This document shows positions 8,391-30,674 of a stretch of 64,000 nucleotides of DNA, in pieces. The stretch is from an uncultured Pelagibacteraceae bacterium. GTDB taxonomy: Bacteria; Pseudomonadota; Alphaproteobacteria; Pelagibacterales; Pelagibacteraceae. The DNA lies in NCBI GenBank assembly GCA_902595115.1, contig CACJOS010000003.1, positions 1 to 64,000 on the forward strand, given 5' to 3'. Within the stretch, counting starts at the first letter, position 1. The number at the start of each line of letters is the position of its first letter. A program made the translations under genes and the position numbers. The notes under the pieces are model-generated. The model did not search any database and was not told the DNA's origin. It worked only from the letters and a program-made list of their open reading frames with translations.

Positions 8391-9385
8391 AGATTTTCAA
8401 AATCTTTCAAAATAGCATGAGGTATTTTAATAGTTCCTTTCATATTTTTTTTATATCTTTTGTATTTATTTTGACCAGGGTACAAAATATCACTCGTACC
8501 TCTTATTTTAGGTAAATTCTTTACTCTTTTAATATTTTCCTTAATCCTTTGTCTAAAATTTCCAACAAATAAATTTGGTTTAAATACCATAAATAAATGA
8601 CCTACATTTTGTGGTCCGCTAAAATCATCGAATGGATCTTTAACCTTTCCAGAATGATCACTCCCAGTCAAAACTCCACTTAAAATATCAACCATCCAGG
8701 CTAGACCAGATCCTCTAAAACCTGCGATTGGTAATTGGACACCTTTCAAGGCTTTCGAAGCATTAGTAGTTGGTTGTCCTTTTTTATCGAGTGCAGTTCC
8801 TTTTGGAATTTTTGTTTTAGTTTTTGCAGCCAATCTTATTTTGCCTCTATTAATTATTGACATGGATGCATCAAAAATAAATGGCACTCTTGATGAAGTT
8901 GGAGCACCAAAGCAAATTGGGTTAGTTCCAAATAACGCTTTTCTAGATCCAAAAGGAGCTATTGCTGGGGGCGCATTGGTGAAACATAGTGCTATAAGAT
9001 TTTTTTTAATAGCTTGTTCTGCATAATATCCTGATAATCCAAAGTGGCCGCTATTTTTAACTCCAATCAAACTAAATCCAGTTTTTTTTGCACTTTTTAT
9101 CGCCCGTTTAATTGCGATATCCGCAGCTACAAACCCAATACTATTGTCTGCATCAACATGAAAAATTGAATGGGATATTTTTTTTAATTTTATCTTAGGT
9201 TTTGGATTAATAACTCTCTTTTTAATTCTATCACAATACATTTTCACTCTTGAAATACCGTGGGAACTAGCACCAACTAGTTCTGCATTTATGATGGCAT
9301 CCGAACATATTTTTGCATGCGCTTTACTTAACTTATACTTTACAAAAATCTTAATTAAATCTTTTTTAAGTTTATTTATTTTCAT
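8387..9385 (-). CDS. Ldh family oxidoreductase (malate/lactate/sulfolactate dehydrogenase-like)
   Basis: ASSHGISRVKMYCDRI, GFSLIGVKNSGHFG, FGTNPICFGAPT, GLAWMVDILSGVLTG. Confidence 0.85.
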   Translation of the reverse strand: MKINKLKKDLIKIFVKYKLSKAHAKICSDAIINAELVGASSHGISRVKMYCDRIKKRVINPKPKIKLKKISHSIFHVDADNSIGFVAADIAIKRAIKSAKKTGFSLIGVKNSGHFGLSGYYAEQAIKKNLIALCFTNAPPAIAPFGSRKALFGTNPICFGAPTSSRVPFIFDASMSIINRGKIRLAAKTKTKIPKGTALDKKGQPTTNASKALKGVQLPIAGFRGSGLAWMVDILSGVLTGSDHSGKVKDPFDDFSGPQNVGHLFMVFKPNLFVGNFRQRIKENIKRVKNLPKIRGTSDILYPGQNKYKRYKKNMKGTIKIPHAILKDFENL

Positions 9386-23070: not shown

Positions 23071-23147
23071 GGCGGGGTAGCTCAGTTGGTTAGAGCGCGG
23101 GACTCATAAGCCCGAGGTCAGTGGTTCGATCCCACTTCCCGCTACCA
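23071..23147 (+). tRNA. tRNA-Met (CAT anticodon, elongator-like, CCA encoded)
   Basis: GGCGGGG TA GCTC..GAGC, anticodon loop CTCATAA, T-arm AGTGG TTCGATC CCACT, TCCCGCT A CCA. Confidence 0.9.
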
Positions 23148-23148
23148 T
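23101..23148 (+). repeat. 48-bp direct repeat, copy 1 (3' half of tRNA-Met)
   Basis: GACTCATAAGCCCGAGGTCAGTGGTTCGATCCCACTTCCCGCTACCAT, identical to 24094..24141. Confidence 0.95.
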
Positions 23149-23181
23149 TCTAGAAGCATTGGTCTGTTTTGCGTCTCTGAG

Positions 23182-23208
23182 GCGTCAATGATATTGGTTC
23201 TTGAGTAA
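23182..23208 (+). repeat. 27-bp imperfect repeat, copy 1
   Basis: GCGTCAATGATATTGGTTCTTGAGTAA; 25/27 identical to 23974..24000. Confidence 0.85.
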
Positions 23209-23274
23209 TTGCTTTATTTATAATTTGATATTGTTATTATTTAATTAATAAAATTTCATTTTAACTAATAAATT

Positions 23275-23904
23275 ATGGCTTTAGATAACTGGGTATTATT
23301 TATAATTGCGGTTTTAGCTCTTATGAGCACACCTGGGCCAAGTCAATTATTGATGTTATCCAACAGCGCAACTTATGGCCTTAAAAATTCAGTTGCAACA
23401 ATAGTGGGGGATTTGTCAGCAAATCTTTTACAAATGATAATAGCCACAGCTGGAATTGGGTTATTGATAGCATCATTTGATAATAACATCTTAATCTACA
23501 TAAAATGGATAGGTGTTACCTATTTAGTTTGGAACGCTTTAAAATTAATTTTTGAAAAAAAGGAAAATGCTAACAAATATAAAAAAACAAATAATAAAAA
23601 AATTTATAGAAAATTGTTTTTACAAGGTTTTTTAACATCCGCATCAAACCCTAAAGCAATCTTATTTTTTGCTGCTCTCTTTCCACAATTTATATCTGTA
23701 AATGGTGGTATCTGGACTCAATGCTTAATTTTATCAATTACATATATTTTCATTGATGGAATATTTCTTTTTTTTTATGGTTTTGCGGCTTCGAAAATCA
23801 CTATGATGATAAAGAGCAATTCAAGCTTGATGATTAATAAAGTTGGAGGCTCATTAATGTTAGTTGCTGCGCTTTTATTAGGATTTAAATCGCTTGATAA
23901 ATAA
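23275..23904 (+). CDS. LysE family translocator
   Basis: LALMSTPGPSQLLMLSNSATYGLKNSVATIVGD; FLTSASNPKAILFFAALFPQF. Confidence 0.9.
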   Translation: MALDNWVLFIIAVLALMSTPGPSQLLMLSNSATYGLKNSVATIVGDLSANLLQMIIATAGIGLLIASFDNNILIYIKWIGVTYLVWNALKLIFEKKENANKYKKTNNKKIYRKLFLQGFLTSASNPKAILFFAALFPQFISVNGGIWTQCLILSITYIFIDGIFLFFYGFAASKITMMIKSNSSLMINKVGGSLMLVAALLLGFKSLDK

Positions 23905-23973
23905 TTTAAAAATTACTTAATACAATTCAGTTACAATCTACAATATAGTTAAACTGTCTCTTGCTCCATATAC

Positions 23974-24000
23974 GCGTCAATGACATTGGTTCTTGACTAA
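23974..24000 (+). repeat. 27-bp imperfect repeat, copy 2
   Basis: GCGTCAATGACATTGGTTCTTGACTAA. Confidence 0.85.
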
Positions 24001-24093
24001 GATTCTTTAATTTGATTCAATATCACTAGAAAGGAAAGAGAGCATTTACAGGAGTAATTGTTCTAGAGTAGGTGACAAGGGTTCATGGCGATA

Positions 24094-24141
24094 GACTCAT
24101 AAGCCCGAGGTCAGTGGTTCGATCCCACTTCCCGCTACCAT
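24094..24141 (+). repeat. 48-bp direct repeat, copy 2: tRNA-Met 3' fragment without recognisable 5' half
   Basis: Perfect copy of the tRNA-Met anticodon-loop-to-CCA segment; upstream sequence does not form an acceptor/D-arm. Confidence 0.95.
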
Positions 24142-24228: not shown

Positions 24229-25401
24229 GTGAATTTAAAACACAAAAACATTGTACTTTCTTTTTTATTTTTTTTGTTAATAACACTTTTGATATTTTAT
24301 AGAGGGCCCTGTTTTCTTTTAGAAGGAACTTTTCAGCAGGATGAATACGACTTTTTAAAAAATAGTATAGAGCATGGTTTTTTTAAGGGTTTGATTTACG
24401 TCTATTCTGGCGCAGGCTACTTTAATTTTTGGACAAATTTTTCAACTAGTTTTGCATCTCTTTTCCCAGAAGCAATCTCTAAAATAGTTGTTACCTATTT
24501 TGCTTTATCTGTAAAATTGTTAATTTTTTTGTACATTTATTTTAATGACTCAACTCTTTTTACAAAATTTTGGCATAAAATTTTTGCTATTTTTGTAATC
24601 TTATTTTCGCCACCTATGACACCAGAAGTTTGGATGACAACAATACATTCTAACGAATATTTTGGAATTTTTGCTTTTGTATTGTTATTTTCTAATTTCA
24701 AAAAATCATATTACTTCAAAAAAAATTTAACAATTATCCTATTATTCATATCAGGTATTAGCAGTATATACGCAGCGATTTTAACTCCAGCTTTCATAGT
24801 TAAATATATGATAAACAAATCCAAAATAAATTTATCAAAACTCATTTCAATTTTTTCAGCTTTTATTTTACAATTATTTATTGTTGTAAATAATTATTTA
24901 CTGAATGTAGGACACGGCCAAAGGTTTGAAATTGAGTTTTATAAATTTATTAGCTATGTTTATAATGTATTAGTAAGAAGTTTCTTTGGCAGCAATATAC
25001 CAAAAAATTTATTTGTAGAAACCAATTTTTATATTTTAAAATATTTTAATATTTTTGTAATCTTGCTATTTTTATTTTTAACTTTTTATTTAATATTTTA
25101 TATTTTTAAAAAGCGTGACAAAGTTCTTTATCTAATAGTATTTTGTTTATTAATTGTTTCACTTTTTATAATGATTGGATCTTTGTATTCTGATTTTGTT
25201 GGTGGAAGATATGCAGTAGTTCCAGGTATAATTGTAATTTTTTTAGTTTTCAGAATTTTTATAATAGAAACTTTTTTTCCAATAAAAAGTTTAGCATCAA
25301 TATTATTGATTTCATCTCTTATTATTGGTTTGGTTGAATTTAAGTATAAATCTCCATTACCTCAATTATTGAATTGTAGTTATTTTAGTTTAGATAAATA
25401 G
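24229..25401 (+). CDS. Polytopic membrane protein (GT-C-like or O-unit related), GTG start
   Basis: 390 aa, many TM segments; in a sugar/glycosyltransferase cluster. Confidence 0.5.
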   Translation: MNLKHKNIVLSFLFFLLITLLIFYRGPCFLLEGTFQQDEYDFLKNSIEHGFFKGLIYVYSGAGYFNFWTNFSTSFASLFPEAISKIVVTYFALSVKLLIFLYIYFNDSTLFTKFWHKIFAIFVILFSPPMTPEVWMTTIHSNEYFGIFAFVLLFSNFKKSYYFKKNLTIILLFISGISSIYAAILTPAFIVKYMINKSKINLSKLISIFSAFILQLFIVVNNYLLNVGHGQRFEIEFYKFISYVYNVLVRSFFGSNIPKNLFVETNFYILKYFNIFVILLFLFLTFYLIFYIFKKRDKVLYLIVFCLLIVSLFIMIGSLYSDFVGGRYAVVPGIIVIFLVFRIFIIETFFPIKSLASILLISSLIIGLVEFKYKSPLPQLLNCSYFSLDK

Positions 25402-25414
25402 TCTATAAATACTT

Positions 25415-26137
25415 ATGAAAAAAAAATTGTTAATTTTTATTATTACTTACAATGCATCTTTCAGACTAACTAACGTATTAAAAAAAATTGATTTAAAAAA
25501 ATTTAAAAAGTATGATGTGAAAATATTAATTAGTGATGATAAATCAAGTGACGATACAATTAATATTATAAAAGAAATATCAAAAAAAAATAAAAATATT
25601 TTTTATAAGATAAATAAGAAAAATCTTCATTACGGCGGTAATATTAAATCATGTATTAAATTTGCTGAAAAAAATAATTTTCATTATGCTGCAATGATAC
25701 ATGGTGATGACCAATATAACCCAAAATATTTACCAAAAATGTTAAAAAAAATTGAAAAATATAATTCAATTTCTGTTTGTGGTTCAAAAATGAACTTTAA
25801 AATTAAAGCTCTTAAAGCAAAGATGCCTTTTTATAAATTTATTGGAAATATAGTGTTAACAAATTTATTTAATTTATTATATAAAACTAACTTTTCCGAC
25901 TGTCATACTGGATTATGGCTATATGATGTAAATAAAATCAAAAGGAAAATAAATTTAAAAAATTTAACTAATGGTTATAACTTTGACAATCAGATGCGAA
26001 TAGAAATTATTAAGAAAAAAGCTTATATAAGTGAAGTTCCAATAATAGCAAAATACGGTGATGAAAAATCTTCAATTCACTTATTTTATGCTATTAAATT
26101 TGTCATAGAGTCATTTTACAGAAGATTTTTTATATAA
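25415..26137 (+). CDS. Glycosyltransferase family 2
   Basis: FIITYNASFRLTNVLKKI, SDDKSSDDT, AMIHGDDQYNP. Confidence 0.85.
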   Translation: MKKKLLIFIITYNASFRLTNVLKKIDLKKFKKYDVKILISDDKSSDDTINIIKEISKKNKNIFYKINKKNLHYGGNIKSCIKFAEKNNFHYAAMIHGDDQYNPKYLPKMLKKIEKYNSISVCGSKMNFKIKALKAKMPFYKFIGNIVLTNLFNLLYKTNFSDCHTGLWLYDVNKIKRKINLKNLTNGYNFDNQMRIEIIKKKAYISEVPIIAKYGDEKSSIHLFYAIKFVIESFYRRFFI

Positions 26138-26149
26138 GAAATAATTTTT

Positions 26150-27025
26150 TTAATTATTTTTGCTAATTATTTTTTTTAAATAATTTGAATATTCACAATT
26201 CCCATAAAATTTTACGGCTTTTATAATTTCATTTTTGCTTATCCATTTATTATTTAAAGCAATTTCTTCCAAACAGGCTATTTTCAAACCCTGTCTATTT
26301 TCTATAGCCGAAACAAAGGAACTAGTTTTATAAAAGTCTTTTATTGAACCAGTATCAAGCCATGCACCACCTCTACCTATTAAGTCCATTGCTAATTTAT
26401 TTTTCTTTTTATAAACGTTAAGAAGATCTACTATTTCCAGCTCACCTCTTTTTGAAGGTTTTAATTTTTTTGCGTAATTAATTACTTTATTATCAAAAAA
26501 ATATAATCCAGTTATTGCAAAAAAAGAAAAAAATTTTTTTGGTTTTTCTTTTATATTTATAATTTTATTTCTTAAAACTTTTGCTACCCCATATTTTTCT
26601 GGGTTACTTACTCTATGTAATAATACTTTTGCTCCTGTTTTGGTTTTCGTACACCTAAGCAGTGTTTTTGATAAAGATTGCCCATAAAAAAAATTATCAC
26701 CCAGTATTAGAGCAACACTGCTTTTACCAATAAATTTTTCTCCAATAATAAAAGCTTCTGGTAATCCTCTAGGTTGATTTTGAACTGCATATCTAATTTT
26801 AACACCAAGATTATTTCCATTTGGTATTATTTTTTTATATTGATCAAGCTCATTTTTGTTTACAATTATAAGAATATCTTTAATTCCTGAGAGCATCAGA
26901 ATTGATAATGGATAATAAATTAAGGGTTTGTCGTAAATTGGGAGAAGATGTTTATTCACTGCTTTTGTAAGTGGACTCATTCTGGTACCTTTTCCACCAG
27001 CTAAGATAATACCCTTTTTAATCAT
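26150..27025 (-). CDS. rfbA: Glucose-1-phosphate thymidylyltransferase
   Basis: KGIILAGGKGTRMSPLTKAVNKHLLPIYDKPLIYYPLSILM, LILGDNFFYG, GGAWLDTGS. Confidence 0.9.
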   Translation of the reverse strand: MIKKGIILAGGKGTRMSPLTKAVNKHLLPIYDKPLIYYPLSILMLSGIKDILIIVNKNELDQYKKIIPNGNNLGVKIRYAVQNQPRGLPEAFIIGEKFIGKSSVALILGDNFFYGQSLSKTLLRCTKTKTGAKVLLHRVSNPEKYGVAKVLRNKIINIKEKPKKFFSFFAITGLYFFDNKVINYAKKLKPSKRGELEIVDLLNVYKKKNKLAMDLIGRGGAWLDTGSIKDFYKTSSFVSAIENRQGLKIACLEEIALNNKWISKNEIIKAVKFYGNCEYSNYLKKIISKNN

Positions 27026-28224
27026 AAATTAATTTTAAAAAATTTTTCAAAAGTATGTTTAATATATAGTAAGTTTTTTTTTGTTAAACCTTGATGACAA
27101 CCGATAAGCAAACCATTTTTCATTATGTCATTAGACACATTTTCACTATTTTTAACTTTAAAATACTTTCTACCTTTAATTATTGGCTGTTTTAATATAT
27201 TTCCAGTAAAAATTGTTCTTGTCTGAATATTATTTTTTTCTAAAAATATTTGAAGTTTTTTTCTGTTAAAATATTTATTTTTTTTAATTACTAAAGGAAA
27301 TGCCAGCCAAGCAGTTTTAACATTTTTATTTTGTTCTGGTAGATTAAAAAAATTTGGATAATTAGAAAAAAAACTTTTCAAAAATTCAAAATTATAAGAT
27401 CTTATTTTGATATTTTTTTTTAATTTTTTAATTTGTTCTAAAGCAAATGCAGCAGAAATTTCTGAAGGTAAAAAATTATATCCTATATCTGAAAAAATAT
27501 ATTTCCTGTCGTAATCAATACCAGAGACTTTTACATTAAATCTTACATTTATATTTTCTGTTTCGTTAAATGTACTAGAGGATCTTCCCCAGCCTCTAAG
27601 TAACTTTGCTTTTTGGTAACAGTCGTAATTATTAAAACATGCAATTCCACCAAAACCAGCGCCATTTATAATGTGAGAGGCATAAAAACTATTAGTCGAT
27701 ATGTCAGAGTACTTTCCAGTATTTTTATTATTAATTTTATACCCAATCGTATCTGCAGAATCTTCAATAACTAATAATTTATATTTTTTTGCTATGAAAC
27801 TAATTTTTTCCCAGTCACAAATATTCCCCAATAAATTTGGGATCATAATTGCTGCAGTTTTTTTATTTATACATCTTTCAATTTGATTTACATCAGAGAT
27901 AAATTTATTTTTTTCTACTCCTATAAAATAAGGAATTAAACCAAGCTGATAAATTGGAGCCACCGTTGTCGAAAATGTTAAATTAGGAGTTATAACTTGT
28001 GATCCTTTTTTAAAACCACACGCTGCCAAACTTAAAAGATTTGCAGATGATCCAGAATTGACCATAAGCCCATATTTTTTGCCGAATATGTTTGACACAC
28101 TTTTTTCTAATTTTTTAACATGTGGACCATCAATAAGATTAAGACTATTTTTTTTTAATACTCTAATAACAGCATTAATTTCATTATGATCATAAACAGC
28201 TTTACCATAAAAAATTTTTTCCAT
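27022..28224 (-). CDS. DegT/DnrJ/EryC1 fold enzyme with His in place of PLP-Lys (RfbH/ColD-like sugar 3-dehydratase candidate)
   Basis: MVNSGSSANLLSLAA, VIEDSADTIG, TNSFYASHIINGAGFGG (aligned to SFxxxK), RGWGR..GIDYDRKYIFSDIGYNFLPSEISAAFALEQ. Confidence 0.8.
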   Translation of the reverse strand: MEKIFYGKAVYDHNEINAVIRVLKKNSLNLIDGPHVKKLEKSVSNIFGKKYGLMVNSGSSANLLSLAACGFKKGSQVITPNLTFSTTVAPIYQLGLIPYFIGVEKNKFISDVNQIERCINKKTAAIMIPNLLGNICDWEKISFIAKKYKLLVIEDSADTIGYKINNKNTGKYSDISTNSFYASHIINGAGFGGIACFNNYDCYQKAKLLRGWGRSSSTFNETENINVRFNVKVSGIDYDRKYIFSDIGYNFLPSEISAAFALEQIKKLKKNIKIRSYNFEFLKSFFSNYPNFFNLPEQNKNVKTAWLAFPLVIKKNKYFNRKKLQIFLEKNNIQTRTIFTGNILKQPIIKGRKYFKVKNSENVSNDIMKNGLLIGCHQGLTKKNLLYIKHTFEKFFKINL

Positions 28225-28227
28225 AAT

Positions 28228-29247
28228 TTATAATTTACCAATTCTTCTCATAATATCTTTTTTTGAAAATTTTGAAAAATATAAAGCATTTTTAAGATAC
28301 CAATCGAATGTATACTCTAAACCTCTACTTAAATTTATTTTTGCTTTCCATTTTAGTTTTTTAAAAACTTTATTACTATTTAATGCATATCTAATATCAT
28401 GGCCAGGTCTATCCTTAACAAATTTTATTTTTACATTACTTCCAAGCGCTATTTTCTTTTTTGCAATTTTTATTAGATTGTTGGCTATTAAAATATTATT
28501 ACAATTTATATTTGAACCAATATTATAAAATTCGCCAGTCTTTCCTCTATGAAATATCCTTATTAAAGCTTCACAATGATCTTTCACATAAATCCACTCT
28601 CTTGAATTAATCCCTTTGCCATAAATCGGTAATGACCTGTTATTAATAATATTATATATCAATTTTGGAATTAATTTTTCTGGGTGTTGCTTAGGTCCGT
28701 AATTATTTGAACAGTTAGTCACTATAGCATTAATATTAAAAGTTTTTACATATGCTTGAACCAAATGATCAGAAGAAGCTTTCGTCGCAGCATATGGAGA
28801 AGACGGATTATATCTGTATTTCTCGTCAGACCTCCCTTTCAAAACATCTCCATAAACTTCATCAGTAGATACGTGTATCAATTTTGTTTTTTTTTTATTT
28901 TTGGAAAATATTTTAAAAGCTTCTAAAAGTGAATAAACACCCAAGATATTGCTGTTAATAAATTGTTTAGAATTTTCTATTGATCTATCAACATGGGTTT
29001 CGGCTGCTAAATTAAATATACCCGAGGGTTTGTATTTTTTTAAAATAGTTAGAATTTTATTTTTTTCATTAAGATCTACTTTTAAAAATTTATAGTTTTT
29101 ATTCTTAATGAATTCTTTTGTATTATAAAAATTTGAAGAATAGCTTATTTTATCAATATTAATAACAAAATATTTTCTTTTTAATAACTCATTTACTAAA
29201 TTACTTCCTATAAAACCTAAACCGCCAGTTACAAGTATTTTTTGCAT
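28228..29247 (-). CDS. rfbB: dTDP-glucose 4,6-dehydratase
   Basis: ILVTGGLGFIGSNLVNELL, NLAAETHVDRSI, HVSTDEVYGD, SPYAATKASSDHL, NCSNNYGPKQHPEKLIP, WIYVKDHCEA. Confidence 0.95.
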   Translation of the reverse strand: MQKILVTGGLGFIGSNLVNELLKRKYFVINIDKISYSSNFYNTKEFIKNKNYKFLKVDLNEKNKILTILKKYKPSGIFNLAAETHVDRSIENSKQFINSNILGVYSLLEAFKIFSKNKKKTKLIHVSTDEVYGDVLKGRSDEKYRYNPSSPYAATKASSDHLVQAYVKTFNINAIVTNCSNNYGPKQHPEKLIPKLIYNIINNRSLPIYGKGINSREWIYVKDHCEALIRIFHRGKTGEFYNIGSNINCNNILIANNLIKIAKKKIALGSNVKIKFVKDRPGHDIRYALNSNKVFKKLKWKAKINLSRGLEYTFDWYLKNALYFSKFSKKDIMRRIGKL

Positions 29248-29294
29248 TATTTTTTTTACAATATTAAAATGTTTAAGTATACTTTTAATTATTC

Positions 29295-30140
29295 ATGAAT
29301 CTTTCTCTCGAAGATATTACTTTTATAATAGTTACTCACAAAAGCGAGCAAATAATAAATGACTGTTTAAAATCACTCCCTAAAAATTCAAATAAAATAA
29401 TTATTGAAAATTCACAAAATTTTAATTTAAAAAAAGAATTAAAAGAGAATTATGACAATATTGAGATTTTAATATCAGAAAATTTAGGTATGGGAGCAAC
29501 AAATAATATAGGTATAAGAAAATGCTCTACAAAGTATGCATTTGTTTTAAATCCTGATGTTAAATTCAAAAATAATACTTTAGAAAAATTATTTGAAAAT
29601 TTAAAAAGAATTGAAGATTTTGCAATAGTTTCTCCTTTAAACAGCAATGCTAAATATCCAAACTATAAGATTTTTGATAAAAATAAAATCTTAAAAAATG
29701 AAAATATTATTTCGGTAGATACAGTGGATGGTTTTTCAATGCTAATTAATAAGGAGAAATTTCCAGATAATAACTTTTTTGACGAAAATTTTTTTTTATA
29801 TTTAGAAAATGATGATTTATGTCTGAGGATAAAAAATAAAAAAGAGAATATATTTATAATTAAAGACTCCTTAATTGATCATAAGGGAGGAATTGGAAAT
29901 GATGATAAAACCCAACAGTTAAGAAACTGGCATTGGATGTGGTCAAAATTTTATTTCAACTATAAACATTTTGGTTATGCAGTTGCTTTACAAAAAGTTT
30001 TTTTTAGTCTTTTGAGTTCTTCGTTAAAATATATTTTTTTTACAATTCTGTTACAAAAAAGAAAAAAAAAAATCTATGAAATGCGTCTTAAAGGAACTAT
30101 TAACTCTATTTTGGGAAATAAAGCCTTTTTCAGAATTTAA
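29295..30140 (+). CDS. Glycosyltransferase family 2 (rhamnosyltransferase-like)
   Basis: ISENLGMGATNNIGIRKC, VLNPDVKF, ENFFLYLENDDLCLRIK. Confidence 0.85.
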   Translation: MNLSLEDITFIIVTHKSEQIINDCLKSLPKNSNKIIIENSQNFNLKKELKENYDNIEILISENLGMGATNNIGIRKCSTKYAFVLNPDVKFKNNTLEKLFENLKRIEDFAIVSPLNSNAKYPNYKIFDKNKILKNENIISVDTVDGFSMLINKEKFPDNNFFDENFFLYLENDDLCLRIKNKKENIFIIKDSLIDHKGGIGNDDKTQQLRNWHWMWSKFYFNYKHFGYAVALQKVFFSLLSSSLKYIFFTILLQKRKKKIYEMRLKGTINSILGNKAFFRI

Positions 30141-30146
30141 TTTTAC

Positions 30147-30674
30147 TTAATGACCGGGAAACTCAATTAACGTTTCCACTTTAAATCCTTCTTGAATTAA
30201 TTTTTTACAGCCATTGAGGTCAAATAGATTAATTACAAAAATGAAAGCTTCTACTTTTCCTTTCGATATATCGACCAAATTTGCTGCCGCCTCCGCTGTA
30301 CCCCCTGTAGCTATTAGGTCATCGATTATCAGAACTGAGTCATTTACATTAATCGAATCTTTATGAACCTCAATTGTCGCTTTTCCATATTCTAATTCAA
30401 AGTCAATGGAATGAGTTTCGGCAGGTAATTTATTTTTTTTTCTTAACATTATAAATGGTTTTTTTAACAAATATGATACTGCTGATGCAAAAACAAAGCC
30501 CCTAGATTCTATTGCTGCAATTTTATTAAAATTAAATTTTTTAGACTTTTCAACAATTAAGTCTATACAATGTGCGAAAGCTTCCTCATCTTTAATTAGA
30601 GTTGTTATGTCTCTAAATAGAATTCCCTTTTTTGGATAATCAGGTATCGATCTAATATAATCTTTTAAATCCAT
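30147..30674 (-). CDS. apt: Adenine phosphoribosyltransferase
   Basis: IRSIPDYPKKGILFRDITTLI, AAIESRGFVFASAVSYLL, VLIIDDLIATGGTAEAA. Confidence 0.95.
   Translation of the reverse strand: MDLKDYIRSIPDYPKKGILFRDITTLIKDEEAFAHCIDLIVEKSKKFNFNKIAAIESRGFVFASAVSYLLKKPFIMLRKKNKLPAETHSIDFELEYGKATIEVHKDSINVNDSVLIIDDLIATGGTAEAAANLVDISKGKVEAFIFVINLFDLNGCKKLIQEGFKVETLIEFPGH

Follow-up and report, generated by a model that had tools for sequence, protein, structure and literature searches.

The window, by which we mean the whole 64,000-nucleotide stretch analysed here, belongs to an uncultured Pelagibacteraceae genome (G000, a 0.92-Mb assembly that is 72% complete) and contains a single tRNA gene, a tRNA-Met predicted by ARAGORN on the forward strand. 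Positions 23101-23148 are duplicated exactly at 24094-24141, forming a 48-nt direct repeat that extends to 51 nt with one mismatch. The repeat begins at tRNA base 31, the final base ahead of the anticodon loop, and ends with the CCA plus one T, and a chance origin of a perfect match of this length is out of the question. A search of both strands of the window, allowing up to 14 mismatches, returned no third copy of the tRNA half. Because the sequence ahead of the second copy (24064-24093) does not match the tRNA 5' half, this copy is not a gene. The only gene between the copies codes for a LysE-family transporter (PF01810, 98.5 bits against a cut-off of 25.6), and a shorter repeat (23182-23208 versus 23974-24000; 27 nt, 93%) is located in the two arms of the segment. 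An earlier note on this DNA had claimed the perfect 48-bp repeat, a second copy devoid of a usable 5' half and an enclosed LysE gene with no integrase, and all three claims hold. A promoter scan of the region revealed no excess over shuffled sequence. The features of the locus are as follows.

23071..23147, + strand: tRNA-Met (CAT), functional copy, supported by ARAGORN, the repeat and an intact tRNA of the same sequence at this site in relatives
23101-23147, + strand: attachment core on the attL side, corresponding to the tRNA 3' part, from the repeat comparison
23148..23208, + strand: left cassette end, starting TTCTAGAAG, also conserved next to CCA in cassettes from other genomes
23170-23191, + strand: left 11-bp-period repeat, TGCGTCTCTGA followed by GGCGTCAATGA, resembling an arm site (lag-11 test)
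23275..23904, + strand: cargo, a LysE-family efflux transporter of 209 aa (PF01810), with the same protein in the cassettes of G169, L215 and L223
23962..24093, + strand: right cassette end, class I, with its motif in 13 of 399 genomes of the genus, and with 18 contigs from the GTDB r220 species set matching the junction exactly
23962-23983, + strand: right arm-like repeat, TGCTCCATATA followed by CGCGTCAATGA, and after it conserved sequence containing AAAGAGAGCATTTACAGGAGTAATTG and then TTCATGGCGATA
24094..24141, + strand: second copy of the tRNA-Met 3' part, attR-like, interpreted from the repeat and the empty sites of relatives as the displaced original tRNA end

Sugar-nucleotide and glycosyltransferase genes occupy positions 24229-30140, between the second copy and the core gene apt (30147-30674), which directly follows the tRNA half in G106, G423 and G426. 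No third tRNA copy marking an insertion of this cluster was detected in the window; what was observed is its position beyond copy 2, and its membership in the cassette is unsupported.

The tRNA half (47 nt) was present in 297 of 399 genomes of the genus (SAR11/Pelagibacteraceae). We examined 20 genomes with extra copies, together with G000 and G020; most are partial single-cell assemblies, in which missing genes are likely. Of all these, 20 presented a second or third copy on the same strand, 0.55-3.5 kb downstream of the tRNA, enclosing segments of 0.5-3.4 kb and giving 23 cassettes in total, and two of the examined genomes differed in harboring a 12-kb element (G106) or a prophage (G417).

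The content of these small segments ended by a partial tRNA repeat varies among relatives. LysE is the cargo in G000 and G169; G260 and G145 carry ArsR together with an ArsP-family permease, G357 carries a tautomerase-family protein, and trypsin-like proteases are encoded in G228 and others, while the 575-bp cassette of G419 and G140 has no open reading frame reaching 70 aa. A scan of GTDB added class I cassettes encoding a sigma factor and an EF-hand-like protein (L213, L229), an ArsI/CadI-family enzyme (L215, L223; 130 bits versus a cut-off of 116), a DmdA-like demethylase (L219; 388.7 bits, below the cut-off of 410) and a TRAP transporter accompanied by an amidohydrolase (L231). The same LysE gene is found within the 4.76-kb composite cassette of L215 and as the first gene of a 2.1-kb cassette in L223. 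The titles of the 18 contigs with the exact class I junction designate nearly all of them as Pelagibacter or Pelagibacteraceae single cells or MAGs, and one simply as Proteobacteria, which places the host of the window in SAR11. Searches of class III cargo for defence genes returned no PADLOC or Pfam match. Chimeric assembly cannot explain precise junctions that are common to dozens of genomes.

Unrelated cassette proteins from G228 (L060), G125 (L065), G133 (L066), G020 (L072) and G271 (L063) share a near-identical signal-peptide start, MKKLLGIVVLGLL, which is also conserved at the DNA level (ATGAAAAAACTTTTAGGGATCGTGGTTCTGGG). This start occurs 7 times in 50 kb of cassette DNA and 4 times in 1.46 Mb of other loci, with two of the latter four instances mapping to the class II locus L111 and the candidate helper element L230. 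It may be a portable secretion leader or a recombination handle.

The cassettes also have defined ends. At the left end, TTCTAGA or a near variant comes straight after CCA in nearly all cassettes and is followed, after about 15 nt, by a direct repeat with an 11-bp period (TGCTCCAATAG with TGCTCCAATGA, the window's own pair, or TGACACACATA with TGACACACTCA). The right ends fall into four classes and present a similar repeat, whose distance from the core is roughly 110 nt in class I and 65-70 nt in classes II-IV. At lag 11, 21 of the 29 left ends reach 6/7 matches (shuffle mean 0.47, maximum 3; other lags, 0-4), as do 20 of the 29 right ends (shuffle mean 4.1, maximum 12), with lag 13 raised as well in right ends (15) and related cassettes counted separately throughout. 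The arm repeats of the window itself are imperfect (5/7 on the left, at most 4/7 for the right pair) and weaker than in most cassettes. Heterobivalent tyrosine integrases, the lambda-type family, require paired arm repeats flanking the core. The cassette repeats resemble the arm sites of such integrases and constitute putative binding sites.

Within the 399 genomes, the class I motif lies beside a tRNA 3'-half copy in each of the 13 genomes that carry it, and so does the class II motif at each of its 8 places in 7 genomes. An ordinary tandem duplication of the tRNA was considered and ruled out, since the second copy is preceded by this conserved cassette end and not by tRNA sequence. In G012, G156 and G410 copy 2 is decayed and copy 1 intact, as expected if selection acts on copy 1 only. 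In the L060, L230 and L231 lineages the tRNA anticodon stem reads CAG/CTG, and the second copies carry the CTG side too. The arm of the G228 cassette retains CGG, hinting at the position of the exchange point.

The comparison of flanking sequences uncovered empty sites. In two genomes, G022 and G406, the tRNA runs straight into the flank that lies beyond the last copy in G419, G076, G233, L213, L229 and L215, with 88-94% identity starting at the first or second base, and in G013 it likewise runs into the flanks of G260 and L226 (82% and 94%). No empty twin of the G000 locus was found among 70 single-copy loci. The first six loci combine five cargoes and two end classes with one flank type. Furthermore, individual cassettes recur in diverged surroundings. 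G000 and G169 share 95.5% identity over the 1126 nt spanning tRNA, cassette and copy 2, against 74-79% in their flanks, and their common cassette body has different left arms (GCGTC-type versus GCTCC-type); the equivalent values are 97.2% against 77-79% for the ArsR/ArsP cassette of G260 and G145, and 95.1% against 78.9% for the 575-bp cassette of G419 and G140. The earlier note had interpreted the repeat as an attachment-site footprint and had suggested looking among relatives for a lone tRNA-Met without the segment and for other cargo at the same place. Both were found, and together with the LysE cassette shared across diverged flanks they support the attachment-site reading. An arrangement with LysE fixed in all relatives, which would have spoken against it, is not what the genomes present, given that cargo varies and empty sites exist.

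These comparisons also bear on two other accounts of the segment. In the first, a larger element would have lost its integrase and most of its genes by deletion, leaving a cassette that is now immobile. The lack of an integrase in the segment, an integrase relic just past copy 2 in G271, and the decayed copies noted above are in line with this possibility, but a LysE cassette of identical size and ends in two genomes with diverged flanks, the many cargoes with intact ends and the flawless second copies point to cassettes that moved recently as units of their own, and we regard a dead remnant as unlikely. In the second, the cassettes would have entered only once and then passed from one SAR11 cell to another through double crossovers located in the tRNA and the shared ends. 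SAR11 bacteria recombine frequently, which makes such spread possible, and the identity between G000 and G169 encompasses the tRNA and copy 2 besides the cassette. Homologous recombination alone nonetheless leaves unexplained the precise junctions at base 31, the arm-like repeats and the finding of cassettes from two end classes beside the same type of flank, and appears quite improbable.

An integrase gene is absent from all the small cassettes. Searches of 26 genomes for PF00589 genes identified one or none in each, mostly of 298-327 aa in open frame, and this lone gene was taken to be the host Xer enzyme. Only G106 and G417 encode more, with the extra genes lying in each case inside the genome's own element at this tRNA. 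A distant integrase could have been overlooked, as most of the genomes are partial single-cell assemblies. An enzyme acting in trans is the most likely source of integrase activity.

A candidate for this role was identified in a MAG, G423, in which a 6.4-kb element between two tRNA halves encodes a 327-aa tyrosine integrase (PF00589, 2.6e-21) in which the R, HxxR and Y motifs can be recognised by eye. The gene adjoins a class I arm repeat (TGCTCCACTCA with TGCTCCAATGA), and the right end of the element is identical to the class I right end of the window at 127 of 136 positions, compared with about 50% for the other classes. On the strength of this one MAG, the G423 element is a candidate helper for class I cassettes. 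Its left end is devoid of the TTCTAGA motif, and it could represent two nested insertions instead of one element. The relic beyond copy 2 in G271 is a truncated relative, and related integrases have 11-bp-period repeats or repeat-like sequence alongside at L245 (tRNA-Met) and L248 (an apparent tRNA-Gly), and a scan of viral contigs with the G423 integrase returned one remote match, at 23%.

We also considered the 340-aa integrase that lies by the right end of the 12-kb element of G106. It shares with the cassettes the site and the 11-bp period of the arms, but its own arm sequence (TGTGACAGAGT with TGTGACAAGCG) is a different one and it was rejected as the class I enzyme. Relatives with 60-65% identity (L198, L199, L200, L201 and L202) are located immediately ahead of an entire tRNA-Met gene that is followed by core sequence, a geometry different from that of the cassettes. 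In G239 and G413, a search tolerating 3 mismatches revealed no second tRNA copy. In the closed G106 genome (L094:9012-12209), the tRNA 3' half and the same 60-nt arm also occur inverted at 9012, resulting in a 3.1-kb integrase-bearing piece with inverted att-like ends.

This same tRNA-Met is also the site of temperate pelagiphages whose integrase is 424-425 aa long (L024, L025, L026, L095, L096 and L232), and the L024-L026 phages and the G417 prophage carry a complete tRNA copy. The cassettes might be satellites that borrow the integrase of such a phage, and prophages of this type are indeed present at the tRNA in G417 and G426, the latter of 33 kb and stacked on a cassette. The phage arms (GTACCATATACGTACC), however, are unlike those of the cassettes, 2.9 million viral contigs contained neither the class I nor the class II end motif, and neither phage genes nor phage attachment arms were identified in the cassette. 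Comparison of phage records with this tRNA yielded only phage tRNA genes, at 74-87% identity among the best 40 matches. A pelagiphage was rejected as the direct source on the grounds of its arms and of the viral contigs, and a satellite origin seems very improbable.

Our preferred interpretation, with a probability of roughly 0.78, is that positions 23148-24093 constitute a non-autonomous, att-flanked class I cassette that was integrated site-specifically and is mobilised in trans. The integration event postulated by the earlier note is supported, but the segment is not a lone remnant: it falls within a recurrent family of cassettes that lack an integrase, and this family has a candidate relative that encodes one. 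A tyrosine integrase would recombine the tRNA-Met 3' part, serving as attB, with an identical attP sequence carried by the cassette in circular form, so that the 3' half brought by the cassette rebuilds the tRNA and the host's own 3' half is pushed to the far end as copy 2. The cassette would comprise nothing but its cargo, here LysE, and two flanking att arms whose repeats have an 11-bp period, and the integrase would come from related autonomous elements sharing the right end, such as the G423 element. The rebuilt tRNA would again be a full site, and later cassettes would insert beside it, generating arrays that grow outward from the tRNA. Arrays mixing two end classes (G199, G125, L223), a single-class array (G133) and the stacked prophage of G426 are consistent with a rebuilt tRNA that remains a target. 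We infer excision, the circular form, mobilisation in trans, the order of growth and travel between cells; neither an excised circle nor an attP sequence was encountered. More tentatively, and with slightly less than even odds, SAR11 may possess a minimal integron-like system in which single-gene cassettes are loaded at one tRNA-Met through at least four arm families, each recognised by a dedicated tyrosine integrase acting in trans, are stacked in arrays and spread LysE, ArsI, ArsP and DmdA-like genes across the clade.

SAR11 bacteria rank among the most numerous cells of the ocean; their genomes are small, contain few recognised mobile elements and differ widely in accessory genes. The cassettes are a likely route for the trade of single genes among these abundant and streamlined organisms. 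Their recognisable ends provide a searchable signature of single-gene transfer and, with a candidate enzyme named, gene gain by streamlined bacteria becomes directly testable through reads and a laboratory integrase assay.

Cassettes at tRNA repeats are already known in the Actinomarinales and the Methylophilaceae, as seen in the accessible parts of two reports (PMC7771536, PMC10872708). 'Ca. Actinomarinales' carry additive flexible genomic island cassettes at tRNAs, with tRNA repeats; they belong to another phylum and use tRNAs other than that of the SAR11 cassettes, and the accessible text mentions neither conserved ends or end classes nor arm repeats or an associated integrase (PMC7771536). 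In fGI-2 of 'Ca. Methylopumilus', the last 20 bp of a tRNA-Lys are repeated around variable islands of 330 bp to 42 kb, which differ from the SAR11 cassettes in the tRNA and the shorter repeat; the available portion of the source describes neither end classes nor a helper (PMC10872708). In the literature searched, mostly outside subscription journals, no plain description of such cassettes in SAR11 was found, and the defined end classes, stacking and candidate helper are new to that literature.

In the field of integrative and conjugative elements, cis-mobilizable elements (CIMEs) are att-flanked DNA without recombination genes. The SAR11 segment matches this description, with direct repeats of the tRNA 3' part flanking DNA that encodes no recombinase and with one case, the G423 element, of an autonomous relative combining a matching end and an integrase; unlike CIMEs, no conjugative partner was seen. 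The abstract of the original tycheposon paper reportedly mentions similar elements in co-occurring microbes. The tycheposons of Prochlorococcus, as described in the accessible part of a later source, span 4-200 kb and encode their own recombinase (PMC10872708). They share with the SAR11 cassettes integration at a tRNA gene, cargo genes and a tyrosine recombinase in the autonomous relative, and differ in that the latter are mostly of 0.5-3.4 kb and lack a recombinase, with LysE alone between the copies in the window (PMC10872708). The sites of the SAR11 cassettes are tRNA halves with arm repeats, unlike the attC hairpins of CALIN, the integron cassettes that lack an integrase, or the transposon inverted repeats of MITEs, and with the integron-integrase model the candidate helper reaches 34.8 bits, against a cut-off of 265; like both, the cassettes combine cargo or ends only, an enzyme presumably supplied in trans and an array at a fixed site (PMC11389934).
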